Below, in pieces: positions 6,860 to 62,820 of a DNA stretch of 64,000 nt. The stretch lies in NCBI GenBank assembly GCA_017514805.1, contig JAFWIP010000009.1, positions 1 to 64,000 on the forward strand, in the 5' to 3' direction. Under the pieces are notes generated by a model. It worked only from the letters and a program-made list of their open reading frames with translations. It was not told where the DNA came from and made no database searches. A program made the position numbers and the translations under genes. Position 1 is the stretch's first letter. Each line of letters begins with the position of its first letter. The DNA comes from Candidatus Saccharimonadota bacterium (GTDB taxonomy: Bacteria; Patescibacteriota; Saccharimonadia; Saccharimonadales; Saccharimonadaceae).

Positions 6860-7724
6860 TTTCTAACCTTTCGATACGTGCGTCAATTGGTGGATGAGTC
6901 GAGAATAATCTAGCGATAAACGATTTCTTCAGCGGACCAGCAATAAAGAGCGCCTCAGCAGCAACATTCTGTTGGCGCATCGGGCGAACATGTGTATCAA
7001 GCTTGCGTAACGCATTAATCATATCATCCGCACTAGTCATACTTGCGCTCGAGGCATCCGCTAAGTATTCGCGCTGACGCGAAATAGCGAGCTGAATCAT
7101 CGTCGCGACGAATGGTGCAAGGATAATCGTAAATAAAGCAAAGACGACACCGACCGGTGAATTGTTTTCTTCGTCACGATCACTCCAGAACAACATACGC
7201 AGACCGATATCTGAAATAAGTCCAACGATTGCAGCGAGGCCAAAGACGATCATACTGACGCGAATATCGTAATTTTTTACATGAGACATTTCGTGCCCCA
7301 TAACCGCGCGCAATTCTTTATCGTCCATGATTTCGAGTAGCCCAGTCGTAGCCGCAACGCAAGCGTGTTGTGGATCGCGCCCAGTCGCAAAAGCATTTGG
7401 CGCTGGATCTTCAATAATATAAACTTTCAGCATTGGAAGCTTCGCATCTTCAGCAAGTTTTTCAATGATTTTATAATAGCGAGGGTTTTCAGTTTTCTCG
7501 ATTTGACGTGCGCCAGTGCCAAGAAGCGCAAGTTTATCTGCCAGGAAATACTGAATCAACGCATAGGCAGCCGCGATGATCCCGACCGTAATTAGAATAG
7601 TCGTATTATCGTAGAGCCATGCGAATAGGCCGCCAATCAGCGATACGAATGCTACAAAAATTAATATAACAAGAATAGTGTTGCGTTTGTTTTGCGCAAT
7701 CTGCTTGCGCACAGAAATAGCCAT
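6846..7724 (-). CDS. htpX: HtpX-like M48 membrane zinc metalloprotease
   Basis: HtpX degrades misfolded membrane proteins. Two N-terminal hydrophobic helices (about 17-37 and 42-62) precede the HExxH zinc motif GHEMSHVKN (His144, Glu145, His148). Two more helices follow, then the third-ligand motif REYLADASS. Length (292 aa) fits the family. I start at the ATG at 7724 because a longer reading from 7769 would be translated out of a terminator hairpin, and because the -10 element lies exactly 6 nt upstream. First gene of the htpX-membrane protein-ligA run. Confidence 0.93.
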
Positions 7725-7730
7725 GTATTT

Positions 7731-7739
7731 ATTATAACA
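7731..7739 (-). promoter_or_regulatory. Extended -10 (TGTTATAAT) giving a leaderless htpX mRNA
   Basis: TATAAT ends 6 nt before the ATG and is preceded by TGT. The predicted transcription start is the A of the start codon. Confidence 0.7.
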
Positions 7740-7750
7740 CTTTACAAACA

Positions 7751-7777
7751 AAAAACAGCCGACCCCCATGGGTTGGC
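7751..7777 (-). terminator. Terminator upstream of htpX
   Basis: GCCAACCC and GGGTCGGC form an 8-bp stem followed by TTTTTTG on the minus strand. It insulates htpX from transcription coming from the tRNA-Gly side. The plus strand also has a short T run. Confidence 0.75.
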
Positions 7778-7860
7778 CGAATTTTTATAAAGTTACAAAT
7801 ATCTTCTCTGATGCCTCTTCTGAAATTAGAACATAAATAGCCGTATTGTCAATTAGCCAT

Positions 7861-7883
7861 AAAAATAAGCCCTATATCTGGGC
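7861..7883 (-). terminator. Terminator directly after tRNA-Gly
   Basis: After the CCA end come eight T, then GCCC-AGATATA-GGGC followed by TTATTTTT. A short hairpin typical of tRNA 3' flanks. Confidence 0.55.
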
Positions 7884-7891
7884 AAAAAAAA

Positions 7892-7967
7892 TGGTGCGGG
7901 TTAAGAGACTCTAACTCTCGACCTCTTCCTTGGCAAGGAAGCGCTCTAACAACTGAGCTAAACCCGC
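7892..7967 (-). tRNA. tRNA-Gly (GCC), CCA encoded
   Basis: A complete cloverleaf. The acceptor stem GCGGGTT pairs with AACCCGC, the anticodon arm is CTTCC-TTGCCAA-GGAAG (anticodon GCC), the discriminator is A, and the genome encodes the CCA end. It lies just after the glycosyltransferase operon on the same strand. Confidence 0.95.
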
Positions 7968-8032
7968 AACTAGAGTTAATTATAGCACAGTTGCCACGGA
8001 AATGCTAGTACTTTCCGTGGCAACTATTATTT

Positions 8033-10003
8033 TTATTTGTCCGCTGGGCGGTAATAGATATATTCATATTCGAAATTATATTCGTTTTCTTTCAAAGTCT
8101 TACCAACCTCTTTTTGCGGATAGACGATTCGGTAACCGTTATTTGTGAGATAATCCCTCATTCTCTCGCTATAAAATAGCGCTTTACCGCCAGCCACCAC
8201 AATCTTTGGCTTCTTGGCTTCTAGTGTATTGAAGTACTCGTCGCCCATCCCCTTGAAGTTTTCAATCGTTTGTGTGAAGAAGATGAATCGAGTTGCCGAA
8301 CGGCGATTGCTATGAAGGAAAACGTGCGGGATGATTGAGTTGCCATTATAGACAGCAATTTCGTCATCTTCGTCCGTATAGTTCTGAATCGTATTCGCCA
8401 TTGCTACGGTTGCAATTGAATTCTTATTGTAGTCTTCTTTGCGACCGAGATAAGTATCAAGATCTTTGCGAATAATCATAGACCAAGTCGGGAAAATTGC
8501 GCCAATAATCGCAATAAGGAATAATACTAGGACAAGCGCGTCGTCTTTCGTATAGTGCCAACGGCCATTCTTCTTCGTGTGCTCCGGGAGATGAGTGCAA
8601 ATCATCGCGCATGGATAAATAATTCCATACACTGCAATGATGCCGTAGTGCGGGAATGGGAAGCCGGACATAATCGCCGTAAGCGTATTGAGCGCGAAGA
8701 AAATTCCAAAGTAAACATCGAGTTTTGTACGAGTGGTAAGTAAGCGATAAATCATATAGATTACGCTGAAGATTAGCACAGGCTGAGCAAATAGATAGAA
8801 GAATACATCGACCTTCGCCGCAATACCACCTCTCTCACCAGAGTAAACAAGGTTATATTCAATAAACTGCTCGATACAATCCGCAAGTGCGCCATTAACC
8901 GCTAGCCAAATAACGAGCGGGATAATAACGGTTAATACGCCTAATATGAAGAGAATAATAAAACGAACCAAGTCGCGAATCTTCTTCTCTTTAATACATT
9001 TGACGAGGATTACGATACCAAATGCTACCCAGACCGCAGCAAGATTTGGGCGAATCATTAGCGCGGCACCACAGAGCACGCCACAGAGCCAGACCATTAG
9101 ATTCTTAATTCTGCCAGTCTGGAAATATTTCAAGAAGATATTTAGCGAAATCGTCACGAGCGGCATCGCGTATAGACAACAACAACCACCAACATGGCCA
9201 CCATCGTTCGTTGTATAGAATACATAGAATGGCGTGAGTACTGCGATTGTCGCTAGGAACGCCTGAACTGGCTTACATTTTAAGCGACGAGCGAAACAAT
9301 AGATGGCAAATACGGAAATTGTAATTGCACCTACCTCGAGAATCCATTCACCACGATATTCATTAACGGCGCCTGCCGCTGCTTGCATTACATATAGCAA
9401 TGGGCCCTTATGGTCAAAGACATCACGATACGGCATACCGCCTTCACGAATCGTTTGGCCAACATATTTATAAACGTTTGTGTCACAGAAGCCGTCACGA
9501 TGACGCCATGGACCCCAGTCACTAAGCATCGCTAGACTCAGTGCGATCATACAAAGCGCTGCGAAAACTAGTGATTTTTTATAAATCGACGAATTTTCTT
9601 TTTCGTTAAAGATGACGAGTTTACTTGCAACATAGTTCACGATAATCACGATAATATTAGAGATAATCTTGATTATCAGATCAGGACAATGAAGTCGATC
9701 GACGAAGATATACATAATCGCAATATCGAGGAATCCCGTCAACAGACGACAGGCAGTAAACGAGCAAATCTCGCGGAAAATCGCCTTTTTACCCTTTGCC
9801 TTACTATGAAACACCCAAAGGCGATTCGTAATATAGGCAAAAGCAACTGCAAGTACCCAAGCAATCGAGGTCGAAACAATCGTGCTCAGATGCGCAACAT
9901 GCGCACAGAGCCAATAAGCAACAATATTGACGACTGTCGTGCAGACACCAAAGAATAGGTAAGAGATGATGTCCTTATATTTTACGAATAGTTTCTTAAG
10001 CAT
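8033..10003 (-). CDS. GtrA-like domain fused to a GT-C (PMT/ArnT-like) membrane glycosyltransferase
   Basis: The first 130 residues form a four-helix GtrA-like domain (LFFGVCTTVVNIVAYW, AYITNRLWVFHSK), a family linked to moving polyprenyl-phosphate sugars across the membrane. The remaining 520 residues are a GT39/ArnT-like multi-helix enzyme: an acidic first loop (GFCDTNVYKYVGQTI) and DVFDHKGPLLYVMQA are typical of lipid-sugar-dependent transferases. A C-terminal soluble domain begins near residue 560. I start at the ATG one base after the upstream TGA (TGATATG); an in-frame TTG nine codons earlier is less likely. With the GT2 gene before it, it forms a pair that could make a polyprenyl-phosphate sugar and attach that sugar outside the cell. 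Confidence 0.85.
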   Translation of the reverse strand: MLKKLFVKYKDIISYLFFGVCTTVVNIVAYWLCAHVAHLSTIVSTSIAWVLAVAFAYITNRLWVFHSKAKGKKAIFREICSFTACRLLTGFLDIAIMYIFVDRLHCPDLIIKIISNIIVIIVNYVASKLVIFNEKENSSIYKKSLVFAALCMIALSLAMLSDWGPWRHRDGFCDTNVYKYVGQTIREGGMPYRDVFDHKGPLLYVMQAAAGAVNEYRGEWILEVGAITISVFAIYCFARRLKCKPVQAFLATIAVLTPFYVFYTTNDGGHVGGCCCLYAMPLVTISLNIFLKYFQTGRIKNLMVWLCGVLCGAALMIRPNLAAVWVAFGIVILVKCIKEKKIRDLVRFIILFILGVLTVIIPLVIWLAVNGALADCIEQFIEYNLVYSGERGGIAAKVDVFFYLFAQPVLIFSVIYMIYRLLTTRTKLDVYFGIFFALNTLTAIMSGFPFPHYGIIAVYGIIYPCAMICTHLPEHTKKNGRWHYTKDDALVLVLFLIAIIGAIFPTWSMIIRKDLDTYLGRKEDYNKNSIATVAMANTIQNYTDEDDEIAVYNGNSIIPHVFLHSNRRSATRFIFFTQTIENFKGMGDEYFNTLEAKKPKIVVAGGKALFYSERMRDYLTNNGYRIVYPQKEVGKTLKENEYNFEYEYIYYRPADK

Positions 10004-10004
10004 A

Positions 10005-13616: not shown

Positions 13617-13622
13617 ATATTA
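13617..13622 (-). promoter_or_regulatory. Putative -10 of the fur/znu operon
   Basis: TAATAT on the minus strand, 6 nt from the ATG. A 17-nt spacer would put the -35 inside the palindrome at 13636-13664. Confidence 0.45.
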
Positions 13623-13635: not shown

Positions 13636-13664
13636 AATTTGAAAATGGTTTTCATTTTCAAATT
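13636..13664. promoter_or_regulatory. 29-bp palindrome, probable Fur/Zur operator
   Basis: AATTTGAAAATG and CATTTTCAAATT are perfect 12-base inverted arms around GTTTT. The TGAAAATG..CATTTTCA core resembles Fur-family boxes and covers the -35 region of the metalloregulator operon, as expected for autorepression. It also lies only 2 bp past the end of the next gene upstream. Confidence 0.75.
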
Positions 13665-14087: not shown

Positions 14088-14093
14088 ATTATA
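14088..14093 (-). promoter_or_regulatory. -10 element of the HAD-like gene
   Basis: TATAAT, 8 nt from the ATG, immediately after the terminator at 14099-14118; near-leaderless transcript expected. Confidence 0.6.
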
Positions 14094-15086: not shown

Positions 15087-15095
15087 ATAATAGCA
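15087..15095 (-). promoter_or_regulatory. Extended -10 (TGCTATTAT) of the 14547 gene
   Basis: TATTAT ends 6 nt before the second of two tandem ATGs; same TTATGCTATTAT string as before the PcsB-like gene at 38698-38706. Confidence 0.55.
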
Positions 15096-18549: not shown

Positions 18550-18558
18550 TGATATAAT
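18550..18558 (+). promoter_or_regulatory. Extended -10 (TGATATAAT) of the PEP-synthase-like gene
   Basis: TATAAT ends 8 nt before the ATG at 18567; no separate -35. Predicts a leader of 0-2 nt. Confidence 0.65.
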
Positions 18559-21595: not shown

Positions 21596-24500
21596 CTATT
21601 CCGTCAATGTCGCCGTGACCATATCTCCGTAAATGGTATGCTCTACACCATCTGCATCTTTATACTTCAAATATGCTTTTACATATACAGTCTGCTCAGA
21701 TATGACGTTGCTTTTACTCCATGTAAAGTAGTAATTGTAATCGTCGATATTATCATTATCCTCATCTGGCCTTACATATGTGGCAGTTTGATCGTCAAAT
21801 GTACCGTTGGCGATATTTGCATCGAGAGTTGCAATTACGCCAGACTTTACAATTTCATATTCATCTGGGACATAAGAATATGAGCGTACGACTATCTTAT
21901 TGTTGCTATATTGTCTATAAATATCCGAAATATATGTGTCCGGCTGTCGACTCTCTAAATCACTTTCGCTTCCATAGATAGCCCTGATTGTTAAATCTTT
22001 ACCCTGGAACATATGCATCGAATAATGCTCGCTATAAGATTTCTTTGCGCCATCTACTTCCCAATATAAGAATTGTTTGCCAGCAACATTTTGAGCATTT
22101 AGCTCTACCTCATCGTCTATTCCGTAACTTGCGATTGTAGGTGTTTCCGATTCGCCATTGTATATAGTCACAGTAAACCGGTCATTCCAAATTGCGTACA
22201 AAGTAGTATCGCCAGCATTCGCGTAAATTGAACCTGAGGTTATAGTATCACCCGTGCCATCTGCTTTTGTATTCCATTCTTTAAACTCATATTTACCGCT
22301 AAGTATAGAGCTTGCAGTGTCAAAGTCATATCTTACTGGCGTTGGCAATTCACCGTATGGTTGCAAATACGTTACCGTCTTCGCGCTCTGAAGCACTTCT
22401 CCGCCATTCGCATTAAGGGTGACAGTGTATGGCGCCGCGCCCCACTGCGCATAAAGCTCGAGCGGAGTCTTGGACTCGACGAGGCCGGCCATGACTTGCT
22501 CGTCAGTATAGTCGTTGTTATCGGCATCCTTCCAGCCAGTAAATATGTAACCGTCACGGACGAAGGCATTCTTCTTGAGCGAGTCGCCCGCCTTGAGGTA
22601 TTCGCTCCTCATTGCGCCGTATGGAGTAGCATTGTCTGCACCGTTGCCGTTGTAACGGATGTAGCGAGCGCCCTTGATCGTAAAGTAGCCTGGCTCGCCA
22701 TTGTCTGGATCGTCGATACGCGCATACTCTTTGTTATTATTTGGCGAATTTGCGTATGAAGTGCCCGCGCCGCCTACGAGGTTAGTTGCGCCTTTAAATA
22801 AATTATGCCCATCCGAATTTACATCTTGATTAGGTACGAGTTCGGTTTTGAAGTCGTCGGATGCGTAAATTGTCGTAATGGCCGTATTTGACAGGAATAG
22901 ATTCCTCATCACATTGATCCTTGAAGTATCGAAAGTAGTAAGATCCAGCACAGCGGTGCCGTTTTTACTAAACATACTTTCAATTGCGCCTTCGAGTGAA
23001 CTCGTATCAAAGCCGCTTACATCGACATTTGCCAACATCGGCGTAAATCTAAACATACCGTTCATATCTTTTACGTTGGCAGTATCAAAGTTGCTTACGT
23101 CCGCGTTTTGCAAATTTGGACAATCATTAAAGAGACCTGCCATTGTAGTTGCTCTCGATGTATTGATATCGTCTGGGAAGATAATTGATTCAATGGCGCT
23201 CATTTTAGCAAACATATTAAACATATTTTCAACATTACTAAAGTCGAAATCACTCAAATCCAAATACGTTATTTTTGAATATGAAAACATGCCACTAACA
23301 TCGGTTGTTGCTTCCGTTACTAACTTACCAACATTTAGCGTCTCGATACCAGAGTGCCCAAACATTTCGTGTGTAGTTTGGAGATGCTTTCCTTCCCACT
23401 TTTCAATTCCGCTAATAGTCTGCAGAGCGTATGTATTATAGAACATACTGCTCATTTTCTCGGCACCGGAAACATCCCAATTATCCGCATCTACGGCCGT
23501 TAATCTCTGACAGTTATAGAACATATTGCCAATATTAGTGGCCTTTGATGTCATTAGATTTGGAATACTAACACTTATTATTCCGGAGTCTTTAAACATA
23601 TTCATTGCGTTTTCTAGATTGTCACCTCTCCAATTTTCCATTCCAGTCACAGTTTCTAGACTGGTAGTGGCGATAAACATATTAGTGGCATTTACGATAC
23701 TAGAAGAATCTAATCCGGCAAGGTCAATCGTCTTAATTGTGCTCATATTACCAAAGAGGTTATAGGTGCTTGCATTCATATATACCGTTTCCGCTTCACT
23801 CCACCAGTAAATCGTGTCGCCATCGGCCCAGGCCCAGACTGGTGTATTCGAGCTCGAAGTGAGTGCAATGTTAACTTTTCCGGCTAAGTTGTCGAAATCC
23901 GGGAGATTCTCGCCATCGAAATGCTTGAATGTGGTCGGTGCGGCAGTAAGTCCCCTAAGTGCCGCGTTTACGTTAGCACCAGCGTTGAGAGTCGCCGTGA
24001 GTTCTTCCCACTGCGCATATAGCTCAAGTGGAGTCTTGGACTCGGTGAGGTCAGTCATAGCTTGTTCGTCGGTATATTCGTTATCATCGGCATCTTTCCA
24101 GCCATTGAACCTAAAGCCCCTGCGAGTAAAAGCGTTCTTCTTGAGTGAGTCACCCGCCTTGAGATATTCGCTCGTCATGGCGCCGTATGGCGTAGCGTTG
24201 TCTGCTCCGTTGCCGTTGTAGCGGATGTAGCGAGCGCCCTTGATAGTGAACATGCCTGGTTTACCATTGTCCGGATCATCGATGCGGGCTTTATCGTATT
24301 CTGAAAGCCCAAGCAATGTAAGCTGAGGTAGGGTCGAACCGGCGCCACCCACGAGCTTTGATTGGCCGCCATAGTCCATTGGTACACCCAAGTTTGTATC
24401 TGGGACGGAACTATAGTCGTGGAAATGTAGCTTTTCCGTCGCGTAAATAGTTTCGACACTATTGGAAATGTGAAGAATGTTTGCCATGCCAATATTAGCG

Positions 24501-27412
24501 ACTCTCACGGCGCTGATGTCGAAGCTACTAAGGTCAATCACGCTAGCATTTGTCCCATTGAACATTTCATACATACTGCCATTAAGACTTGTCGTGTCAA
24601 AGTGCGACAGATCAAGAACTTGGCCATGGGCGTTAAAGGCGGTGAACATACTGCCAAACGTAGTTGCGTTATGCGTATCAAATCCTGAAATATCTAAGTT
24701 TGCGACATCTGCATGATAGAATAACTCGTCGAAATGCGTAACGTTTCCAGTATCAAGGTCGCTGAGATCTAGGTTTGCAATCTTTGCGCCGCCAAACATC
24801 CAGCTCATCTTTTTTAGATTTGGCGTATTTACGCCCGTGAAATTAAGGCTTTCGAGTTTCTTGTCGCTATAGAACATATGGTTCATATCCTCTACGCTCG
24901 ATAGGTTATTATGGCTAAAGTCTACGCTCTTAAGATTAGTGCTATTACTAAATAGATAACTCATGTCTGTCACGTTAGCGGTATTAATAGCCGACAAATT
25001 CACGGTCTCGAGCGTAGTAGTACTATTAAACATGCCCTTCATATTGGTTGTCTGTGTAGTGTTGAGCGGTGACAAATCAACTGATGCGATGCCCGAACCG
25101 TAGAACATTTCTTCAAGCGTCGTCGGGTTAGCGACGGCAAGCGGCGATAAGTCAATTGTGCTCAAAGCAGCTGTATTCCTAAAGAAGCCCGTAAGATTCT
25201 TAGTTAGACTAAAGTTGAATCCTGAGTAGTCGATAGTTTCAGCCTTCTTGAGACCACTAAAGAAGTTGCGAGAATCTTCGTGTGCATAAATTGTTTCGGC
25301 TTCGCTCCACCAGTAGATTGTTTCGCCATCTATCCAAGTATAGACCGGGAAGTTTGATGAACTGATAGCCATATTATATTTCGTTTCGATTTCGTCGAAA
25401 TTAGGCTCGCCTTCGTAATGGCTAAATGAAGTTGCGGCCGAATAGCCCTGCAAGGATCTAATCATATCACCGGCGCTACCCCAAGAATTATTAACCGTAC
25501 CTTTAAGATAAGCCGTGCGCTCTTTCCATTGAGCATAGAGATCAATCGTTGCACCGTCTTCGGTCGTTAGATTAAAGATGCTTGCCTGGTCATCATATTT
25601 GGTGCCAGTACCGTTCGCTGCTGTAGTCCAGCCCATGAATTTGTAGTGGTCTTTTACGAAAGCGTTCTGGGTTAGCTGCTTTTCTTCATCATAGGTGAAG
25701 ACCTGGCTCGACATATTGCCAGTAACTCCATCGGAGTTCTGATGGAAGGCAATTGTGTAATGAATCGGATTCCACTGCGCATAGAGCGTGATAACCGCAT
25801 TGTCCGTAGTAGTGAGATTATGGAATTCTTGCTCATCCGTAAGGCCAAAGTTGCGACCGTCAATCTCGGTATTCCAGCCGCCAAAATTGTAGCCCGTACG
25901 CGTGAAGGCGTTTGCGGTGAGAGTATAATCGTGATCATACTCGAGGTTCGCCATATCTGCCATATCGCCAGCAGCGTTTGAATCGTCAGTATTAATATCG
26001 AAGACGATAGTGTAGTGATTAACTTCCCACTGAGCAACCATTGTAATGGTGCCACCCTCAATGATGTTTTTGACGTCTGCCTTATCGGCGTAGTCGTTAT
26101 TGCTATATTTCCAGCCGACGAAGTGATAGCCGGTCTTTGCGAAAGCATTCTCACGAAGAACACATTCGCTGTCATATTCGCAGTTCGTCGTAGCCATTTC
26201 GCCGCTCGTAGCGCCGTTGCCGTCGTAGTCGATATGGAATGGATTGATAGACCACTGAGCGTAAAGTGTGACGATGCCGTTGTCTTCAGCAGTGAGGTTC
26301 TTTACCTCAGCTTGGTCGTCGTAATGAATGCCGGAACCGTTGGCTTCAGTATCCCAACCGGCATAGGTGCGGCCTGGGAAATTAAAGGCATTGGCTGGGA
26401 GAGTCTTGGTCTCGTCATAGGTCATGGCGAGGTTCGCCATTTCACCAGATGTAGCGCCGTTGCCATTGAATTTAACAGTGTAAGTATGGGCGCGGTAGAT
26501 TGGATGAATCTTGACGTCTTCCGCGATTGGTTGAGTTGGATCGACTGGGTTGCCTTGCTCGTCTTCCCAACCAGTGAGCGTATAGCCATCTTTGCTTTGG
26601 TCTGGGATATTAGCTGGTTCGTTGTAGTTCGAGATCAGTTCTCGTTCATCGCCATTCTTGTCAGTATAGGTAACGACAACTTTGTCATAGAAGCCATAGT
26701 TGGTCGTGAGCGTGAAGCTATTAACTTCGACCGTGGCAGCCTTGACTGACGTGATGGCGGCAGTAGCGAGCGCCGCGACAAGCGCGGCAGTGAGGATCTT
26801 GGCGGCCTTCTTGTGGTTCTTGATATAGATAGCGGCACAGACGATGAGGCCGAGGCTCGAAATTGCAAGCACGACAAAGCTCGCGCCGAGACCGTCGTAG
26901 GTACTTGGCGCCACAATGACTTCTTCTGGCTCATCAATATCCGTAAAGCGAATGCTGAATTTAACTTTCGAAACCTGTTGGCGCTCATTGGTATTTGGCG
27001 TCTTGGTGTATTTCGCCTCAAAGACAAAATCTAAGTTTGAGCCGGCCGCGATAGTTTCATTGGTGTGTTTGTCGTAAGAATAAGAGATGTGGGAGTTTAC
27101 ATTATCGTCGGAGATTGTTTCGATAACATGGTCTTTGGAGTCGGTATTCTGGAGAACAACTTTATAGGTGGCGGTATCGCCAAGTTTATGAAAAGTAACG
27201 TCGCTCACGATCGTGGAGTCATCGTGGCTCGAAATAGCGCCGTCGACGCCGCTAGATAGCTGCGTAATTTCGGCAGATTTGATTTTGAAAATTGCGCCCT
27301 CGGCAATCGCCCGAATTGACGGAACGAGAGACACAATAAAGCTAGCTGCAAAAATAATTGCAGACAAGCCAAATACTTGTTTACGCCAACCTCGGCGCCT
27401 TGTTTTCTCCAT
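21596..27412 (-). CDS. Giant surface protein with InlB-type repeats and BspA/DUF285 repeats (1938 aa)
   Basis: Hydrophobic helices at about 14-32, 176-197 and 206-224. The third ends in SVKA-A, like a signal-peptidase site, so residues 1-200 look like a small anchored protein joined to a second secreted protein. After residue 226 come about six InlB/Listeria-Bacteroides repeats (GNGATSGEM ... TLYAQW). Two long BspA-like (DUF285) blocks follow, with recurring LETVNLSAINTANVTDMSYLF-type units, each headed by an IYWWSEAET module and ended by a GARYIRYNGNGADNATPYG repeat. A final 180-residue beta-rich tail has no LPXTG motif. It probably mediates adhesion. GGAG lies 8 nt before the ATG. Confidence 0.92.
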   Translation of the reverse strand: MEKTRRRGWRKQVFGLSAIIFAASFIVSLVPSIRAIAEGAIFKIKSAEITQLSSGVDGAISSHDDSTIVSDVTFHKLGDTATYKVVLQNTDSKDHVIETISDDNVNSHISYSYDKHTNETIAAGSNLDFVFEAKYTKTPNTNERQQVSKVKFSIRFTDIDEPEEVIVAPSTYDGLGASFVVLAISSLGLIVCAAIYIKNHKKAAKILTAALVAALATAAITSVKAATVEVNSFTLTTNYGFYDKVVVTYTDKNGDERELISNYNEPANIPDQSKDGYTLTGWEDEQGNPVDPTQPIAEDVKIHPIYRAHTYTVKFNGNGATSGEMANLAMTYDETKTLPANAFNFPGRTYAGWDTEANGSGIHYDDQAEVKNLTAEDNGIVTLYAQWSINPFHIDYDGNGATSGEMATTNCEYDSECVLRENAFAKTGYHFVGWKYSNNDYADKADVKNIIEGGTITMVAQWEVNHYTIVFDINTDDSNAAGDMADMANLEYDHDYTLTANAFTRTGYNFGGWNTEIDGRNFGLTDEQEFHNLTTTDNAVITLYAQWNPIHYTIAFHQNSDGVTGNMSSQVFTYDEEKQLTQNAFVKDHYKFMGWTTAANGTGTKYDDQASIFNLTTEDGATIDLYAQWKERTAYLKGTVNNSWGSAGDMIRSLQGYSAATSFSHYEGEPNFDEIETKYNMAISSSNFPVYTWIDGETIYWWSEAETIYAHEDSRNFFSGLKKAETIDYSGFNFSLTKNLTGFFRNTAALSTIDLSPLAVANPTTLEEMFYGSGIASVDLSPLNTTQTTNMKGMFNSTTTLETVNLSAINTANVTDMSYLFSNSTNLKSVDFSHNNLSSVEDMNHMFYSDKKLESLNFTGVNTPNLKKMSWMFGGAKIANLDLSDLDTGNVTHFDELFYHADVANLDISGFDTHNATTFGSMFTAFNAHGQVLDLSHFDTTSLNGSMYEMFNGTNASVIDLSSFDISAVRVANIGMANILHISNSVETIYATEKLHFHDYSSVPDTNLGVPMDYGGQSKLVGGAGSTLPQLTLLGLSEYDKARIDDPDNGKPGMFTIKGARYIRYNGNGADNATPYGAMTSEYLKAGDSLKKNAFTRRGFRFNGWKDADDNEYTDEQAMTDLTESKTPLELYAQWEELTATLNAGANVNAALRGLTAAPTTFKHFDGENLPDFDNLAGKVNIALTSSSNTPVWAWADGDTIYWWSEAETVYMNASTYNLFGNMSTIKTIDLAGLDSSSIVNATNMFIATTSLETVTGMENWRGDNLENAMNMFKDSGIISVSIPNLMTSKATNIGNMFYNCQRLTAVDADNWDVSGAEKMSSMFYNTYALQTISGIEKWEGKHLQTTHEMFGHSGIETLNVGKLVTEATTDVSGMFSYSKITYLDLSDFDFSNVENMFNMFAKMSAIESIIFPDDINTSRATTMAGLFNDCPNLQNADVSNFDTANVKDMNGMFRFTPMLANVDVSGFDTSSLEGAIESMFSKNGTAVLDLTTFDTSRINVMRNLFLSNTAITTIYASDDFKTELVPNQDVNSDGHNLFKGATNLVGGAGTSYANSPNNNKEYARIDDPDNGEPGYFTIKGARYIRYNGNGADNATPYGAMRSEYLKAGDSLKKNAFVRDGYIFTGWKDADNNDYTDEQVMAGLVESKTPLELYAQWGAAPYTVTLNANGGEVLQSAKTVTYLQPYGELPTPVRYDFDTASSILSGKYEFKEWNTKADGTGDTITSGSIYANAGDTTLYAIWNDRFTVTIYNGESETPTIASYGIDDEVELNAQNVAGKQFLYWEVDGAKKSYSEHYSMHMFQGKDLTIRAIYGSESDLESRQPDTYISDIYRQYSNNKIVVRSYSYVPDEYEIVKSGVIATLDANIANGTFDDQTATYVRPDEDNDNIDDYNYYFTWSKSNVISEQTVYVKAYLKYKDADGVEHTIYGDMVTATLTE
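22441..22723. repeat. Internal 283-bp direct repeat, copy A (in the giant gene)
   Basis: Closely matches 24008-24290 base for base with scattered changes; encodes an InlB-like repeat and the junction GARYIRYNGNGADNA. The offset is about 1567 bp, i.e. one whole BspA block. Confidence 0.8.
24008..24290. repeat. Internal 283-bp direct repeat, copy B
   Basis: Partner of 22441-22723. High DNA identity points to a recent block duplication and offers a site for recombination. Confidence 0.8.
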
Positions 27413-29646: not shown

Positions 29647-31229
29647 TCTTTTACCTCAATTATAGACGGCAGCCATGCCTCATCTGGTTCAACGCCGAGC
29701 AAATCTGCAACCGTGGCCGCCACATTTGCAAGACCAAATTCGCCTTTTGCGAGGGTGTATTTTTTACGATTCTCCGTTTCATCGACAAGCGCAAATGGAA
29801 TCTTATTGGTCGTATGCGAAGTCTTCGGGTTCCCCTGCTCATCAATTAATTCCTCGGCATTGCCATGATCGGCAGTAATAATTGTTATACCACCAAGCTT
29901 ATTGACGGCCTCGACGATACGCTTCAAACAAATATCGATTGCCTCCATGGCGATAATCGTCGGCTGCAATTCGCCAAAGTGGCCAACCATATCGCCGCCC
30001 GGATAGTTAATGCGCAGAAAATCAAATTCTTCGCTCTCGATTGCCTCGATTAATCGATCGGTGATTTCGGCAGATTTCATCCATGGACGAGTATTGAACG
30101 GCTCTTTATAGGACGGAACTTCTTCTTCGGCTTCACCGTTCGGGATATCATGAGAGTTGCCGTTAAAATAGTAAGTTATGTGACCGAATTTAACCGTTTC
30201 AGAGATTGCGTACTGACGAACACCATGATTAGATAAGTGTTTCGTAAGCGTATGCTTGAACTCAGGTGTCTTGACTAAAGTATATTGAGGAACATGCAAG
30301 TCTTCGTTATATTCCGTCATACCGACAAAACGAACATCTGGACGGCGAACGCGGTCAAAATGCGGAAAATCATTATAAGTAAAGGCTTGCGCAATCTCGA
30401 TGGCGCGATCAGCGCGAAAATCTATATAGATTACAGCATCACCATCATTAATCGTGCCGATCGGCTGGCCACCTTCGGCAACAACGAATGCCGGCATATA
30501 TTGGTCCTGGAGATTGGCTTGTTCTTTGCGATATGTTTCGATTGCTTCGGTAGCAGTCGCAAATTGACGACCTTCACCTAATACATGCGTACGCCAGCCC
30601 TGCTCAACCATCCCCCAATCATTTTCATATCGATCACAAGTAATCACCATGCGGCCACCGCCACTGGCAATTTTATAATCTGGATTACCGAGATCTTTAA
30701 TGAATTTTTCAATGCGCTGAATATATTTTGGTTCACTCTGCGGCGGCACATCGCGACCATCAATCAAAGCATGGATACGAATGCGCTTCACGCCGTCTTT
30801 ATGAGCTTGCTCAAGCATCTTTTCGAGATGCGCAATATTTGAATGAACATTACCATCACTAAAAATACCCATAAAATGCAGAGTCGAGTCATTGTCGACA
30901 ACGCGCTTCACGGTGTCTTGCCAGACCGGCTCAGCAAAAGCTTTTCCGCCCATAATAGCTTCCTCGACCGCAGCACTGCGCTGCAAGACAATTTCACCAG
31001 CACCCATCGCATTATGACCAACTTCACTGTTGCCCATGTCGCCATCAGGTATGCCTACCCACTTGCCACTCGCGTTTATTGCGGCGCAAGGATAATCCTC
31101 AATTAGGTGATTGTAGGTTTCGAGATGAGCTTTCTTAACCGCGTTGAAACTCTCGTTTTCGCGAATGCCAACGCCATCAAGAACAACCAAAACGACTGGC
31201 CCATCATAATGAAGCTTCTGTTTATCCAT
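29643..31229 (-). CDS. gpmI: Cofactor-independent phosphoglycerate mutase
   Basis: Interconverts 3- and 2-phosphoglycerate. Conserved blocks are LVVLDGVGIRENES at the start (metal Asp), GNSEVGHNAMGAGEIVLQ with the phospho-serine, HALIDGRDVPP, GGGRMVITCDRYENDW, and the metal site ITADHGNAEE near the end. 528 aa is normal. I start at the ATG at 31229: a TATAAT ends exactly 6 nt upstream, whereas the in-frame extension to 31307 would be translated through a terminator hairpin. First gene of the gpmI-membrane protein-galU-DUF167 run. Confidence 0.95.
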   Translation of the reverse strand: MDKQKLHYDGPVVLVVLDGVGIRENESFNAVKKAHLETYNHLIEDYPCAAINASGKWVGIPDGDMGNSEVGHNAMGAGEIVLQRSAAVEEAIMGGKAFAEPVWQDTVKRVVDNDSTLHFMGIFSDGNVHSNIAHLEKMLEQAHKDGVKRIRIHALIDGRDVPPQSEPKYIQRIEKFIKDLGNPDYKIASGGGRMVITCDRYENDWGMVEQGWRTHVLGEGRQFATATEAIETYRKEQANLQDQYMPAFVVAEGGQPIGTINDGDAVIYIDFRADRAIEIAQAFTYNDFPHFDRVRRPDVRFVGMTEYNEDLHVPQYTLVKTPEFKHTLTKHLSNHGVRQYAISETVKFGHITYYFNGNSHDIPNGEAEEEVPSYKEPFNTRPWMKSAEITDRLIEAIESEEFDFLRINYPGGDMVGHFGELQPTIIAMEAIDICLKRIVEAVNKLGGITIITADHGNAEELIDEQGNPKTSHTTNKIPFALVDETENRKKYTLAKGEFGLANVAATVADLLGVEPDEAWLPSIIEVKE

Positions 31230-31235
31230 AAGCAT

Positions 31236-31241
31236 ATTATA
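31236..31241 (-). promoter_or_regulatory. -10 (TATAAT) giving leaderless gpmI mRNA
   Basis: Ends 6 nt before the ATG, just after the terminator at 31250-31275. Confidence 0.65.
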
Positions 31242-32594: not shown

Positions 32595-32603
32595 ATTTTA
32601 ACA
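32595..32603 (-). promoter_or_regulatory. Extended -10 (TGTTAAAAT) of obgE
   Basis: Ends exactly 6 nt before the ATG; TTGGCG in the palindrome serves as -35 at 18 nt. Confidence 0.7.
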
Positions 32604-32627: not shown

Positions 32628-32636
32628 TGCTATACT
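32628..32636 (+). promoter_or_regulatory. Extended -10 (TGCTATACT) of the kinase-like gene
   Basis: Ends 7 nt before the ATG at 32644; TTGGCG lies 16 nt upstream. Confidence 0.65.
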
Positions 32637-34459: not shown

Positions 34460-34465
34460 ATTATA
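34460..34465 (-). promoter_or_regulatory. -10 (TATAAT) giving leaderless traX-like mRNA
   Basis: Ends 6 nt before the ATG; lies 15 bp from the -35 of the divergent promoter. Confidence 0.6.
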
Positions 34466-37539: not shown

Positions 37540-38691
37540 TTATTTACCGAAGTAAATATACTGATACATGCCCTGATCGACCCACTGTTCTGAATATTCG
37601 CCTGGTCGATAATTTGTAGCAGCATTACGAGCGTTGTACTGAGAAATATAAACGCGATTACCAGCAACAGCTTCGACCCAAACAGCGTGACCATAAGCAC
37701 CACCAGTAGAGATACCAACTGCGCCAACCTTTGGTACATTTGTCACAGTGTAACCGGCAGCACGCGCATTGGCTGGCCACTGCTTTGCATTGCCGCGACC
37801 ACCCCAATATGGCATGTAGCCATAGGTGCTATAAACTTTCCATGCAGTATAAGAAACACATTCACAAATATACATACCCCACTGGTCTGCGAAGGCATCC
37901 TTTTGCTGAGGACAGCGACCAGAGTATGGATAGCCACCTTTGCTTGGATCGCCTGCCGTAATACCAGAGGCGTTATATTGCGCGGCGAGATCAGCGAGAA
38001 TCTTTTGCTGCTCTTCCTCAAGCGAAGCCTTCTGCGAAGCAGCACTGTTCTTGAGCTCACGATAGGACGATTCATTTTCGCGTGCTTGAGCAAGCAAGAC
38101 CGCCTGTTGTGCCTCGAGCGAAGCAAGCTGAGTCTTTTGCGTATTTAAATCTTCCAGAATTAACTCAGCGTTTTTCTTCTTTACTTCTAGCTCGGCTTTG
38201 AGATTCTTATTCTCTTCAATAATGCCAGCAAGCGTGTCAGTAAGGCTAGATAGTTTTACCTCTTCGTCAATGAAGCTGGAAAAAGATTCAGATGATGCGA
38301 TACGTTCAATTGTAGTAACTTCATCATTGTAGTAATACTGAGCAATCGTATATCCTACCGTCTCAGAGTTATCATTGATGCGCTTAGTCGTACTTTCGAT
38401 CTCGGCCATGAGCTGCTCGCGCTCAGCCTGCTTTAGCTCAATCTGAGTCTTGAGCGCAGCCTGTTGTGCCTGAAGAGAATTAATCTCGCCCTGGATATTA
38501 TTCGCCTCGGCAGCATAAGCGCTAGCCTGTTCTTCATAGGCCTTCATCTGCGTGCGAAGATTGGAGATTTTGGAATTAATATTATTAAGATCTTGTTGAG
38601 TATAAGCGTGTGCGTGTGGAATAGGAAGACTATTCGCAATCACGGCGAGCGAAGCAAAGAGTAAACAGATAGCACTGCGCTTGATTTTCAT
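37540..38691 (-). CDS. PcsB-like secreted coiled-coil CHAP peptidoglycan hydrolase
   Basis: A signal peptide (residues 1-28, ending AHAHA) leads to a long coiled coil (about 30-235) and a C-terminal CHAP domain with catalytic Cys in CECVSYTAWKVY and His in GAYGHAVWVEAV. This is the architecture of streptococcal PcsB, whose coiled coil binds FtsX and is activated by FtsEX during division. Here ftsX and ftsE are the next genes upstream on the same strand. I start at the ATG at 38691: a TGC-extended TATTAT ends 6 nt before it and the longer reading (38790) would start inside ftsX. Confidence 0.93.
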   Translation of the reverse strand: MKIKRSAICLLFASLAVIANSLPIPHAHAYTQQDLNNINSKISNLRTQMKAYEEQASAYAAEANNIQGEINSLQAQQAALKTQIELKQAEREQLMAEIESTTKRINDNSETVGYTIAQYYYNDEVTTIERIASSESFSSFIDEEVKLSSLTDTLAGIIEENKNLKAELEVKKKNAELILEDLNTQKTQLASLEAQQAVLLAQARENESSYRELKNSAASQKASLEEEQQKILADLAAQYNASGITAGDPSKGGYPYSGRCPQQKDAFADQWGMYICECVSYTAWKVYSTYGYMPYWGGRGNAKQWPANARAAGYTVTNVPKVGAVGISTGGAYGHAVWVEAVAGNRVYISQYNARNAATNYRPGEYSEQWVDQGMYQYIYFGK

Positions 38692-38697: not shown

Positions 38698-38706
38698 ATA
38701 ATAGCA
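38698..38706 (-). promoter_or_regulatory. Extended -10 (TGCTATTAT) of the PcsB-like gene
   Basis: Ends 6 nt before the ATG; gives the hydrolase its own promoter apart from ftsEX. An overlapping TATAAT sits 3 nt from the ATG. Confidence 0.6.
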
Positions 38707-40781: not shown

Positions 40782-40790
40782 ATGATAACA
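40782..40790 (-). promoter_or_regulatory. Extended -10 (TGTTATCAT) of ftsE
   Basis: Ends 6 nt before the ATG. Confidence 0.65.
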
Positions 40791-41876: not shown

Positions 41877-41882
41877 ATTATA
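41877..41882 (-). promoter_or_regulatory. -10 (TATAAT) giving leaderless prfB mRNA
   Basis: Preceded by TG without a spacer base; ends 6 nt before the ATG. Confidence 0.7.
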
Positions 41883-42548: not shown

Positions 42549-42557
42549 ATTCTAGCA
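42549..42557 (-). promoter_or_regulatory. Extended -10 (TGCTAGAAT) of truB
   Basis: Ends 7 nt before the ATG; leader of about one base. Confidence 0.6.
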
Positions 42558-49477: not shown

Positions 49478-49483
49478 ATTATA
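49478..49483 (-). promoter_or_regulatory. -10 (TATAAT) giving leaderless DUF2130 mRNA
   Basis: Ends 6 nt before the ATG, in the 22-bp gap after the surface-protein stop; position may be off by one. Confidence 0.6.
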
Positions 49484-57977: not shown

Positions 57978-57986
57978 ATTATACCA
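57978..57986 (-). promoter_or_regulatory. Extended -10 (TGGTATAAT) of the baseplate-J-like gene
   Basis: Ends 7 nt before the ATG. Confidence 0.65.
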
Positions 57987-58000: not shown

Positions 58001-58009
58001 TGGTAAAAT
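58001..58009 (+). promoter_or_regulatory. Extended -10 (TGGTAAAAT) of the histidine kinase gene
   Basis: Ends 7 nt before the ATG at 58017; divergent from the previous promoter, 14 bp apart. Confidence 0.65.
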
Positions 58010-59366: not shown

Positions 59367-59370
59367 AAAT

Positions 59371-59424: not shown

Positions 59425-60642
59425 ATGACCAAGATTATGTTAGTCGAGGACGACAAGTCCTTGCGAGAGATTTACAGCATTAGGCTGGTCGCTGAAGGTT
59501 ACGATATTGTTTCCGCCGGCGATGGTGAGGAGGCACTCGCACTCGCCGTTCAAGAAAAGCCAGAACTAATCGTTTCGGATGTAATGATGCCGAAAATTTC
59601 TGGTTTTGACATGCTAGATATTTTGCGTTCGACGCCAGAGACTAGCAATATCAAGGTAATCATGATGACCGCTCTCTCGAGCGACGATCAGCGCATGCGC
59701 GGCGAGAGTCTTGGCGCAGACCGCTATCTCGTCAAATCCCAGGTTGGCATCGAAGATGTTATTAATACCGTTCATGAAGTTCTCGGCGACAAGCCAACCG
59801 CAAATGCGGCAACAAATCTCGATGTCGCTGCCTCGGCAACTCCAGCACCAGCTGCTGCGCCAGCTCCAGCACCAGCACCGGCACCGGCGCCAGCGCCAGT
59901 AGCTACACCAGCTCCAGCTCCTGCACCAATTCCGCAGCCAGTAGCGCCAGCTCCAGCACCAGCACCGACTCCAGCACCAGCACCGGCTCCAATTCCTCAG
60001 CCAATCATTCCTAATGCTCCAGAACCGGCCGCAGCACCTCAACCAATTATTCCAAACGCTCCAGCTCCAGCTCCGCAGCCAGCAGCGCCACAAGCGCCAC
60101 AGGCTCCAAACGCAAATTTTAATCCAGCTCCTGCCGCACAGCCGGCTGCAGTGCCAGCTCCTGTCGCACCGCAGGCCGCAGGAGTTCCTGCAGCACCTAG
60201 TACTCCGGCGCCAATCGCTGCCGCGCCGGCACCACAAGGCCCAACACCAGTTACGCCCAGCGGCGAACAAGGTGGCGAGCGCGTAATTCAACCGCTCCAC
60301 GACACGAATACTGAACAGCAGCGCGAAGAAATGGAGCGCAAGATGGATGAACTACTCGGCAATGTTCCAACTGAGCAGAGTCGCCCAACGCAAGAGCAAG
60401 AGGAAGAAGCATTCTCCGAAGAAGAGCCGGATCCAGATTCAATTCAGCCTGGATATGCACAGAACCTTGCAAATGCGCTTAGCCATGACATGCAGCAAGA
60501 TGGACAAGTCGCACCAGATTCAATGGCGGCACGCATGAGTGAAGATCTAAAAGATGATCCGCTAACTCAGCAAGCACAGGCAATGCCCGCAGCTGCGCCA
60601 GAGCAAGCTCCAGCACCAGCTGAACCAATGGAAAATGCTTAG
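59425..60642 (+). CDS. Response regulator with receiver domain and Pro/Ala-rich tail, no DNA-binding domain
   Basis: Residues 1-120 are a receiver: Asp9-Asp10, phospho-acceptor Asp52 in LIVSDVMMP, Thr in MMTALSS and Lys in YLVKSQ. Residues 130-280 are almost only Pro, Ala, Gln and Asn, with PAPAPAP runs and a twice-used IIPNAP unit. The last 120 residues are acidic and helical (EQQREEMERKMDELLG, NLANALSHDMQQDG). No output domain is recognised. It could work by protein contact, e.g. on the cell envelope or pili. A TGTTATAAA lies just upstream. The 3' end overlaps the pseudouridine synthase gene by 8 bp. Confidence 0.9.
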   Translation: MTKIMLVEDDKSLREIYSIRLVAEGYDIVSAGDGEEALALAVQEKPELIVSDVMMPKISGFDMLDILRSTPETSNIKVIMMTALSSDDQRMRGESLGADRYLVKSQVGIEDVINTVHEVLGDKPTANAATNLDVAASATPAPAAAPAPAPAPAPAPAPVATPAPAPAPIPQPVAPAPAPAPTPAPAPAPIPQPIIPNAPEPAAAPQPIIPNAPAPAPQPAAPQAPQAPNANFNPAPAAQPAAVPAPVAPQAAGVPAAPSTPAPIAAAPAPQGPTPVTPSGEQGGERVIQPLHDTNTEQQREEMERKMDELLGNVPTEQSRPTQEQEEEAFSEEEPDPDSIQPGYAQNLANALSHDMQQDGQVAPDSMAARMSEDLKDDPLTQQAQAMPAAAPEQAPAPAEPMENA

Positions 60643-61309
60643 ATTAAATAAATATATTGCAACGAATCTCGGAGTTTCTCGCCGAGAAGCCGATAATCTG
60701 ATATCTGCTGGCAAAGTCTTGGTCAATAATAAGCCAGCAGAAATCGGAGGACGCATATCCGAAAAGGATACTATTATTGTTGATGGCAAAAAAATTGTTC
60801 CCGATAAACTAATTTATATCGCGCTCAATAAACCCGTCAATTATGTCTGCAGTCGTAAACGTCAGGGTGAGACGCCGACGATTTATGAATTGCTGCCAGA
60901 AAAATATCAGGCATTAAAAAGCGTCGGACGCCTCGATAAAGATTCTTCTGGTTTGATTTTACTGACAAATGACGGCGATTTTACTTTTCGTATGACACAT
61001 CCGAGCTTCGTGAAGACAAAGATTTATGAAGTGCGCCTTGATCGCGCGCTTGAACCGCTCCATCAGCAAATGATTGCCGATTTTGGTGTACAGTTGCCTG
61101 ATGGGCCGAGCAAACTCGGCCTTGAGAAGCTTGATGATAATCGAACGTTTTGGCGTATTACGATGAGCGAGGGTCGCAATCGCCAGATTCGCCGCACCTT
61201 CGATGCGCTGGGTTATAAAGTTATTGCCCTACACCGTACGAATTTTGGGCGCTATAGCTTAGATGGTTTGGAAACCGGCAAATTCGTAGAAGTTCCGCGC
61301 GCTGATTAG
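60635..61309 (+). CDS. RsuA/RluB-family rRNA pseudouridine synthase
   Basis: 224 residues: S4 domain first (MLRLNKYIATNLGVSRREAD, AGKVLVNN), then the RsuA-type core with the catalytic Asp in VGRLDKDSSGLILLTNDG, and MSEGRNRQIRRTFDALGYKVIALHR. It modifies a uridine in 16S or 23S rRNA; the length and S4 fusion fit RluB/RsuA, and the exact target cannot be decided. The ATG lies inside the response regulator gene (8-bp overlap). Confidence 0.92.
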   Translation: MLRLNKYIATNLGVSRREADNLISAGKVLVNNKPAEIGGRISEKDTIIVDGKKIVPDKLIYIALNKPVNYVCSRKRQGETPTIYELLPEKYQALKSVGRLDKDSSGLILLTNDGDFTFRMTHPSFVKTKIYEVRLDRALEPLHQQMIADFGVQLPDGPSKLGLEKLDDNRTFWRITMSEGRNRQIRRTFDALGYKVIALHRTNFGRYSLDGLETGKFVEVPRAD

Positions 61310-61328
61310 TTTTTTTACGAACCGTTTG

Positions 61329-61499
61329 AACTTCCGAAGATTTTTTACGCCATACTCCCCTACTTCGCAACTTCCGAAGACATCACGAACTGACGAAGGT
61401 TCGGCGGCGAAGGCTATATATAGTGCTTTCGGAAGTTCGTTATGTTTTCGGAAGTTCAGAAGTACCTATGTGGCAACGAAAAATCTTTCGGAAGTTCGC
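61329..61499. repeat. Five-copy GAACTTCCGAA motif array in a convergent gap
   Basis: Two copies in one direction (61329-61339; 61369-61379, with C for the first G) and three reversed as TTCGGAAGTTC (61428-61438, 61447-61457, 61487-61497). Copies 1-2 and 4-5 are both exactly 40 bp apart; copies 3-4 are 19 bp apart. Located between the ends of two convergent genes, so it is not a promoter region. No other exact cluster was seen in the window. Confidence 0.85.
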
Positions 61500-61509
61500 A
61501 AAAAATATA

Positions 61510-62805
61510 CTAATTCTTTAGAAGTTTTGAGAGCTTTGCTTTAAGGCTGCCATTTTCTGGTACGCCAACAAGCGTATCCATGCCAACACGTAGCAGGCCC
61601 ATAGCGGTTACAAAAGTATGATCAAGTTCGCGGTCGGTGACATTCTCAATCCCCTCAATCATGTCAGGCTCAATAATACTAACAATTGGCCGACGAGCGA
61701 ACGGAAGGTCCTGATACCAATCGCCAGTCGCGAGTAGCTCCGGGATCTCTGATAAGCCAGCGCCGCCGCCACATAGCAGAATCTGGCCCGGAAGAGTCTC
61801 AAGCTGATCAAATTCCTCAATAGCGAGCTCAACGCCGGATTGCCAAACCTCGAGATTGCGCTCAATCGCGGCTTCATATTTTTTATGAATTTCAGGCTTC
61901 ATTTTTGGCGAATCGGCAAGGAGTTTCAACTTCTCGGCATCTTCAAAACTTAAACCAAGGCGCTGTGCGACTTGATGCGTGAAGCTACGGCCACCGAGTG
62001 AAAACATCTTCGTACCCTCGACGCCACCGTCATCAACAATCGCGATGTCTGTAGTACCACCACCGATATCCATTACGATACCAGAGAAATTCGACTCAAC
62101 ATCATCGCCGAGACAAGCACGACAAACTGCAAAAGGCTCAACCGCAACCGTCACAAGATCAAGTTCTAACTCATCGCAAACACGCTCGATTGCTGAGATA
62201 TGTACGAGCGGCGCAAAAGCCGTATAGATTTGAACAACGACTTCTTTGCCCTTAAAGCCAATCGGGTTGGAAACCTTATAGCCATCAATGCGGAGTGAAA
62301 CGAGCGCAGAATTAATCAGACGAACTTCAACGTCCTTATTGTTAGTCTCAAGTGCAACCTCGCGACGAGCGCGCTCGCCAGCCTTTTGCTGAACCTGTTT
62401 AATAATATGCTCCATTTCAGCATCAGTAATTGGCTTGCTTGCGTCGGCGCGGCGATATTTAATCGAAGCCGTATTCCCCTTAATGAGTTCACCGGCAATG
62501 CCAATGACAACTTCTTGGGCGCGAACGCCAGCCATCTCTTCAGCCTTACTCAGTGCCTCTTCGCAAGTCTGAACAACCCCTTCAATATCCGCAATCGCGC
62601 CAGAATACATATTCGTTGGCGCCTCGTGAGCTTTGCCAACACCAACAACTTTGAGCATAGTTTTGCTCTTTTTCGCAATCAATGCCTTTACGTACTCGGT
62701 GCCAATATCTAGCGCTAGTAAATAATTATCTGGATTTTTCTGTTTGCCAGTCGGTGCGCCAGTAGCTTTGGCGGCAATCTCTTTGCCGCGAGAAATAATG
62801 CTCAT
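61510..62805 (-). CDS. ftsA: Cell division protein FtsA
   Basis: Actin-like ATPase that tethers FtsZ to the membrane. It starts with a short linker and ALDIGTEYVKALIAK (phosphate 1), has the SHS2-like 1C region (EVVIGIAGELIKGNTA), phosphate 2 in MDIGGGTTDIAIVDDG, adenosine motif LCGGGAGLSEIPELL, and a C-terminal LKAKLSKLLKN amphipathic helix for membrane binding. 431 aa is normal. TGTTATAAT ends exactly 6 nt before the ATG. ftsZ is not next to it on this side. Confidence 0.95.
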   Translation of the reverse strand: MSIISRGKEIAAKATGAPTGKQKNPDNYLLALDIGTEYVKALIAKKSKTMLKVVGVGKAHEAPTNMYSGAIADIEGVVQTCEEALSKAEEMAGVRAQEVVIGIAGELIKGNTASIKYRRADASKPITDAEMEHIIKQVQQKAGERARREVALETNNKDVEVRLINSALVSLRIDGYKVSNPIGFKGKEVVVQIYTAFAPLVHISAIERVCDELELDLVTVAVEPFAVCRACLGDDVESNFSGIVMDIGGGTTDIAIVDDGGVEGTKMFSLGGRSFTHQVAQRLGLSFEDAEKLKLLADSPKMKPEIHKKYEAAIERNLEVWQSGVELAIEEFDQLETLPGQILLCGGGAGLSEIPELLATGDWYQDLPFARRPIVSIIEPDMIEGIENVTDRELDHTFVTAMGLLRVGMDTLVGVPENGSLKAKLSKLLKN

Positions 62806-62811
62806 GTTATT

Positions 62812-62820
62812 ATTATAACA
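62812..62820 (-). promoter_or_regulatory. Extended -10 (TGTTATAAT) of ftsA
   Basis: Ends 6 nt before the ATG; same nine bases as before htpX. Confidence 0.7.

Follow-up and report, generated by a model that had tools for sequence, protein, structure and literature searches.

Extended −10 elements next to start codons suggest leaderless transcription of many genes in a Saccharibacterium

The window analysed here comprises bases 1–64000 of contig 8 of the Saccharibacterium assembly GCA_017514805.1 (880,861 bases in 11 contigs, 98.87% complete), and it contains 17 genes in which a hexamer resembling the −10 promoter element lies directly ahead of the start codon (Table 1). A preliminary description of the window had placed these hexamers 6–8 nucleotides (nt) before the ATG, most often at 6 nt and in many genes with TG one base upstream, and had proposed that the genes are leaderless. 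Both the spacing and the motif hold up: the distance is 6 nt in 11 genes, 7 nt in four and 8 nt in two, 16 of the 17 hexamers agree with TATAAT at 5 or 6 of 6 bases, and TGn is present in 11 genes. The weakest case is fur, which matches TATAAT at 4 of 6 positions and has no TGn. The evidence set out below makes it very probable that elements of this kind are promoters which serve the housekeeping sigma factor and give transcripts with no leader or almost none.

Table 1. Hexamers ahead of the ATG in the 17 genes (window coordinates)
Gene	Hexamer position	Strand	Hexamer	Preceding TGn	Distance to ATG (nt)	ATG	Remark
htpX-like M48 peptidase	7731..7736	−	TATAAT	TGT	6	7724	Pfam
Fur-family gene	13617..13622	−	TAATAT		6	13610	Weak −10-like; Pfam FUR
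'HAD-like' gene	14088..14093	−	TATAAT		8	14079	No Pfam match
'Glycine-zipper' gene	15087..15092	−	TATTAT	TGC	6	15080	No Pfam match
PPDK_N-like gene	18553..18558	+	TATAAT	TGA	8	18567	PEP-synthase-like
gpmI	31236..31241	−	TATAAT		6	31229	iPGM; second in-frame ATG abuts hexamer
obgE	32595..32600	−	TAAAAT	TGT	6	32588	OBG; element recurs in relatives
P-loop kinase	32631..32636	+	TATACT	TGC	7	32644	Divergent from obgE
traX-like gene	34460..34465	−	TATAAT		6	34453	TraX
PcsB-like CHAP protein	38698..38703	−	TATTAT	TGC	6	38691	
ftsE	40782..40787	−	TATCAT	TGT	6	40775	ABC ATPase beside ftsX
prfB	41877..41882	−	TATAAT		6	41870	Release-factor domains
truB	42549..42554	−	TAGAAT	TGC	7	42541	TruB
DUF2130 gene	49478..49483	−	TATAAT		6	49471	
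'Baseplate-J-like' gene	57978..57983	−	TATAAT	TGG	7	57970	No Pfam match
Histidine kinase	58004..58009	+	TAAAAT	TGG	7	58017	46 nt between divergent genes
ftsA	62812..62817	−	TATAAT	TGT	6	62805	FtsA

Most of the gene names given previously are backed by Pfam, but those of the 'HAD-like', 'glycine-zipper' and 'baseplate-J-like' genes are not; the first two were assigned to their starts from the order of the earlier list. The 'UPF0200' kinase matches general P-loop families, although UPF0200 itself remains the earlier reader's name, and the 'PcsB' protein has a CHAP domain but a coiled-coil match that falls below the curated cut-off. Our automatic procedure missed two of the 17 genes: fur, whose frame has a coding score of 1.65 (cut-off 12), and the PcsB-like gene, for which it chose an upstream TTG with a five-base Shine–Dalgarno (SD) match. 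For the latter, the ATG at 38691 is the more plausible start. A response regulator at 59425 is a weaker additional candidate, with a spacing of 10 nt, and the window holds two divergent pairs of putatively leaderless genes, separated by 46 and 55 nt. The fur-family gene precedes znuA and ABC transporter genes. Immediately upstream of it, at 13636–13664, is a perfect 12-bp inverted repeat (AATTTGAAAATG, a 5-nt centre, CATTTTCAAATT), which we take to resemble a Fur/Zur operator.

Hexamers of this composition might simply reflect chance A/T-rich sequence ahead of start codons, given that the sampled genome is 56% A+T and carries a low background of hexamers near ATGs. We analysed the spacing in the window and 20 further stretches, together 449,879 of the 880,861 bases (51%), in which a codon model identified 353 genes. 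In the window, exact TATAAT peaks at 6 nt ahead of 88 candidate ATG starts (6 cases) and is found at this distance ahead of none of 983 interior ATGs. In 385,879 further bases, it stood 6 nt ahead of 34 of the 521 candidate ATGs and 7 nt ahead of 13; the two figures were 0 and 4 among 5,198 interior ATGs, and 1 and 2 among 3,773 antisense ones. When starts were chosen blind to the promoter, from coding signal and upstream position only (316 genes), strong hexamers occurred 46 times at 6 nt and 16 times at 7 nt, with 0–7 at the other distances up to 59 nt, whereas 200 dinucleotide shuffles gave means of 1.07 and 1.03 at these two distances and a maximum of 5. Thus the comparison of −10-to-ATG distances with shuffled upstream regions that had been put forward as a check came out in favour of the proposal on the 51% sample. 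In the full genome, TATAATN{6,7}ATG occurs 125 times against 29 for TATAATN{13,14}ATG, and TGNTATAATN{6,7}ATG occurs 51 times against 1 for the reversed pattern. The shuffles, with about one hexamer per distance where 46 were seen, refute chance base composition as the source of the peak, as does its lack at interior and antisense ATGs, and we give that explanation a negligible probability.

A classifier covering 347 genes, in which the choice of start partly uses the leaderless score, placed 120 genes in a leaderless class, 173 in an SD class and 54 in neither; decoy ATGs passed the leaderless test in 70 of 6,595 and 48 of 4,441 cases (about 1%). Because starts were chosen partly by leaderless score, the resulting 35% marks the upper end of the estimate; counted blind to the promoter, 62 of 316 genes (20%) have the hexamer at 6–7 nt. 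Judged from these counts, 20–35% of the genes are most likely leaderless. All 120 genes of the leaderless class start with ATG, as the classifier requires, and in three of them an SD match reaches 5 nt or more. In the SD class, 63 genes have only a 4-nt match, which 15% of decoy ATGs also have, and 110 have one of at least 5 nt (decoys about 4%). No 16S rRNA match was found in the assembly GCA_017514805.1, and same-family relatives were used instead. In 11 of the 11 same-family loci matched over their full length, the 16S 3′ end carries the anti-SD CCTCCTTTC, and SD pairing is therefore expected to function. The 3′ tail in this family reads GGATTACC, not GGATCACC, and all 11 of these genes (L139–L149) end GGATTACCTCCTTTCTAG, with T where the Escherichia coli 3′ end, GGATCACCTCC, carries C.

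The leaderless class is unevenly distributed over transcription units. It accounts for 100 of the 218 genes that have a divergent neighbour or a gap of more than 25 nt, compared with 16 of the 107 that lie close behind another gene on the same strand (odds ratio 4.8, p = 2e-8, with 22 genes at sequence ends excluded). This clustering at unit heads points to promoters rather than ribosome sites. The median divergent gap is 81 nt for 49 leaderless genes and 165 nt for 39 SD-class genes, which suggests that short divergent gaps are tied to genome compaction.

The bases around the hexamer also have promoter character. Upstream of it, outside the bases used for selection, 107 sites show the pattern T-R-T-G-n (T 0.60, A/G 0.80, T 0.65, G 0.64), and TRTGn is the extended −10 of Gram-positive promoters. 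TGn accompanies 33 of the 62 sites at 6–7 nt that were picked by hexamer only, against 7% of 248 in-gene hexamers. Similar hexamers lie 30–86 nt (quartiles) upstream of the first genes of SD-class units, and we took as leadered promoters the strong −10 elements located 20–140 nt upstream in 45 of 73 such genes. A −35 box matching at 5 or more of 6 bases with a 16–18-nt spacer is present in 4 of 78 leaderless promoters but in 14 of 45 leadered ones (p = 0.0003). TGn is equally common in the two sets (41 of 78 and 25 of 45), although the leaderless count is partly built in because the classifying matrix, which was also used in the −35 comparison, includes the TGn extension. The two promoter classes of the preliminary description are therefore recovered, an extended −10 mostly without a −35 box for leaderless genes and −35-bearing promoters for leadered ones.

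Alternatively, the hexamer could be a translation signal, an A/T-rich ribosome site within a leader. Its distance from the ATG resembles that of a ribosome site, and non-canonical AT-rich ribosome sites are described for the FCB group (PMC9581028). However, the TRTGn extension is a promoter feature, the hexamer becomes scarce at genes within operons, which would still need a translation signal, and similar hexamers with TGn (25 of 45) and −35 boxes (14 of 45) stand upstream of the first genes of SD-class units. Moreover, the equivalent motif in Deinococcus is described as not replaceable by a ribosome-binding site (PMC12340547). We therefore consider a translation signal very unlikely.

A likely sigma factor for such promoters is encoded in the genome. 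A single protein, SigA-like and 324 amino acids long, matches the sigma-70 region-3 family. A 37-residue stretch of its regions 2.3–3.0 is identical to the best solved SigA, 7ckq_F (from Bacillus), as is VTRERIRQIEAKAL in region 4.2; these are the regions that read TGn and the −35 box. An IF3 domain is also encoded.

The base preceding the ATG bears on where transcription starts. It is T or C in 65 of the 71 genes with 6-nt spacing, compared with 80 of 173 SD-class genes, 54 of the 110 with the strict SD match and 14 of 28 genes with 7-nt spacing. As transcription starts prefer a pyrimidine followed by a purine, the start in the 6-nt class is expected on the A of ATG; the 7-nt class fits a start either there or one base earlier.

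This result also helps to judge whether the start codons have been misassigned, such that the hexamer acts as a conventional −10 and a leader separates it from a genuine start codon further downstream. Several genes have nearby in-frame ATGs, and two starts are conceivable for gpmI because two in-frame ATGs follow its hexamer (31229–31241). Yet the −1 pyrimidine is peculiar to the 6-nt class, the peak persists when starts are chosen by coding signal only, and homology to ObgE starts at residue 1 in 51 of 56 related loci. Misassignment is thus, in our judgement, slightly less probable even than a translation signal.

The ObgE comparison used the best 80 loci, comprising 56 related ones (L059–L114, most titled Saccharibacteria) and 24 outgroup loci. 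Among these 80, the best named relatives are Candidatus Saccharibacteria genomes. They include Tb.RUG.403 with 82% identity, one genome from sheep rectum with 78%, and one from horse faeces with 94% over residues 1–225, and we regard the organism as a Saccharibacterium of gut type. Five related loci without a start codon at the match were dropped, leaving 51. The sequence flanking the obgE start diverges widely among relatives, but the TGn-hexamer beside the ATG recurs: a strong hexamer at 5–11 nt is present in 35 of the 51 loci, 33 of them with TGn, and in none of the 24 outgroup obg genes. The spacing is 6 nt in 15 loci, and a second group of 15 has 9–11 nt. We also sought the start of the divergent kinase in same-genus loci and found only the window's own copy. 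Upstream of obgE, at least eight relatives (L080, L087, L090–L094 and L099) have a hairpin-like repeat (for example CGCCTCTGT...ACAGGGGCG) and a short T-run. The repeat with its T-run ends almost flush with the obgE −10, as if an upstream terminator and the promoter were packed together.

We extended the analysis to 285 genomes of the phylum by comparing counts of TATAATN{6,7}ATG with those of TATAATN{13,14}ATG. The counts are 1,477 and 375 in the family of this organism (17 genomes, ratio 3.9), 203 and 52 in the rest of the class beyond its order (4 genomes), and 11,785 and 6,993 in the rest of the phylum (257 genomes, ratio 1.7). In this last group, with 1 added to both counts, the ratio is at least 2 in 96 genomes and at most 1.2 in 43. 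For the genomes behind the obgE loci, the totals are 809 and 272 in 12 of the 56 relatives, and 698 and 683 in 10 of the 24 outgroups. One relative, CRAIB_MAG28, lacks the signal (17 and 15). Among the outgroups, an Erysipelotrichaceae genome (79 and 18) and an Armatimonadetes genome (11 and 4) are exceptions, and the other eight have ratios of 0.7–1.2. In 15 selected genomes, including this one with its 51 against 1, the pattern with TGN is found 74, 129, 115, 55 and 120 times in five relatives, against 1, 1, 1, 0 and 2 for its reverse; the nine others range from 1 against 3 up to 33 against 0, one of them being a 5.6-Mb outgroup genome (G330) with 14 against 6. The signal is thus pronounced within the family, uneven across the phylum and lacking in eight of ten outgroups.

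Small samples of promoter-blind starts were taken in other genomes. In a same-family genome (G130), 6 of 37 genes have the hexamer at 6 nt and another 3 have it at 7 nt. In two genomes from the same phylum, the counts were 1 at 6 nt, 1 at 7 nt and 3 at 8 nt among 12 genes from one stretch (G183), and 1 at 6 nt and 0 at 7 nt among 38 genes (G081); four stretches of another genome, G075, were excluded because each was shorter than 2 kb. Two genomes outside the class but in the same phylum have high spacing ratios, G183 with 60 against 6 and G174 with 57 against 12, which indicates that strong signals recur elsewhere in Patescibacteria. The Erysipelotrichaceae genome (L118, G326) comes from goat jejunum, and its own obg gene lacks the element; its counts indicate that another lineage may share the leaderless mode.

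Several observations weigh against the leaderless reading. The obgE element is missing in 16 of the 51 related loci, spacings of 9–11 nt in some relatives would leave leaders of about 3–5 nt, and the conservation between orthologues is that of a single gene, obgE. The order's remaining families have a lower spacing ratio (287 against 155, 7 genomes), and a second same-family genome (G342) shows a weak promoter-blind peak, with 3, 1, 0 and 3 hexamers at 6, 7, 8 and 9 nt among 54 genes. Some genes could, in addition, own a second, upstream promoter that provides a leader.

The preliminary description further suggested that the lineage divides its genes into leaderless housekeeping genes and leadered genes, surface proteins among them. 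Here no clear functional separation emerged, and there is at best a weak bias. In the window, ligA, nusA, rnj, rarA and ruvX, all housekeeping genes, are not classed as leaderless. Transmembrane proteins make up 42 of the 120 leaderless genes and 86 of the 173 in the SD class (p = 0.016); set against the 110 genes whose SD match is 5 nt or longer, the difference has p = 0.06. Among first-in-unit genes, a hydrophobic segment at the N-terminus does not tell the classes apart, being present in 19 of 73 leaderless genes and 31 of 94 others (p = 0.40). Leaderless genes have slightly lower codon adaptation, with p values of 0.03–0.08 over four comparisons and a reference set of only 5 genes. We drew 20 genes at random from the 53 first-in-unit leaderless genes with 6–7-nt spacing outside the window. 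They include ruvB, a sortase, a signal peptidase, a penicillin-binding protein, an acetate kinase, a SpoU methylase and a PP-loop ATPase, and 5 have no Pfam match. Twenty of 61 SD-class genes include ribosomal proteins S2 and L25, an Hsp70, a DUF11 repeat protein, a pilin-like protein, an M41 protease and a nucleoside diphosphate kinase, and 8 have no Pfam match. Products that are highly expressed or exported may thus tend toward the SD class, but with statistics this weak we do not endorse a functional division. The window also encodes a 1,938-amino-acid protein with DUF285 and Listeria-Bacteroides (Flg_new) repeats (21596–27412), which is not classed as leaderless.

Overall, the 6-nt peak, the −1 pyrimidine, the conservation and the depletion inside operons support the proposal of leaderless or nearly leaderless transcription. 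We infer that RNA polymerase carrying SigA binds at an extended −10 (consensus TRTGnTATAAT), in most cases with no −35 box, and that it would begin transcription 6–7 nt downstream at a purine, namely the A of the start codon. The transcript would then begin with AUG or bear a few nucleotides at most, and ribosomes would bind the 5′-terminal AUG directly, without SD pairing. Some 20–35% of the genes, mostly heads of transcription units, would use this mode, and about one third of genes would carry a clear SD site. On a broader proposal our view is evenly balanced: leaderless initiation from a −35-less extended −10 would be a principal, inherited mode of gene expression in the class Saccharimonadia, weaker in much of Patescibacteria, beside a second promoter class with −35 and −10 boxes for SD-led mRNAs, and the reduced ribosomes of these episymbionts would start routinely on 5′-terminal AUGs.

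The leaderless mode is known in other bacteria. For Saccharibacteria we found no description, and our search, which did not extend to preprints and most subscription papers, returned no paper on leaderless transcription in Saccharibacteria or Patescibacteria. The word 'leaderless' occurs in PMC12641178, PMC6851277, PMC7441243 and PMC10434106 in reference titles only or, once, in relation to YchF generally. TM7 is absent from the main text of the survey by Zheng et al. 2011 (PMC3160421); the bacteria-wide motif survey in PMC12340547 (Fig. S7) may include the phylum. Should between a fifth and a third of genes in Saccharibacteria indeed be leaderless, start annotation, reporter design and expression models that assume a leader with a ribosome site need revision, and short −10-to-ATG fragments should suffice for driving genes in the few cultured strains. 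Cultured representatives include Nanosynbacter lyticus TM7x and Southlakia epibionticum, and for the latter both transformation and nanoluciferase reporters have been published (PMC10633639). The ribosomes of Patescibacteria are described as smaller (PMC12641178), and these organisms would offer a natural test of how such ribosomes begin on 5′-terminal AUGs.

A close likeness is to Deinococcus-Thermus, in which a −10 element adjacent to the open reading frame (ORF) is likewise conserved in the lineage (PMC12340547). In Deinococcus radiodurans such a motif precedes nearly one third of genes at about 6–7 bp, beside the ribosome-binding-site motif, and the available text reports no bias of the Deinococcus-Thermus motif toward particular pathways (PMC12340547). 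The Deinococcus motif differs in being TANNNT, most commonly TACACT (PMC12340547), whereas that of the Saccharibacterium is TATAAT with TRTGn. Zheng et al. 2011 described a TA-like signal in many bacteria, with its first T about 12 bp upstream of the start, in about 20% of genes in a group of 89 genomes (from the context, Actinobacteria) and about 40% in Deinococcus-Thermus, and found the translation category poorer in leaderless genes (PMC3160421). Medium-GC groups in that survey show TAtaaT, as in the Saccharibacterium. Mycobacteria, similarly, have many leaderless transcripts (PMC3898074, PMC4633059). Promoter function has been tested in Deinococcus (PMC12340547), and the mycobacterial transcripts were established by start-site mapping and ribosome profiling (PMC3898074, PMC4633059), whereas the Saccharibacterium element was recognised from its sequence. 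Judged on its sequence features, the element appears to act like the ORF-adjacent −10 of Deinococcota and the promoters of leaderless genes in Actinobacteria.

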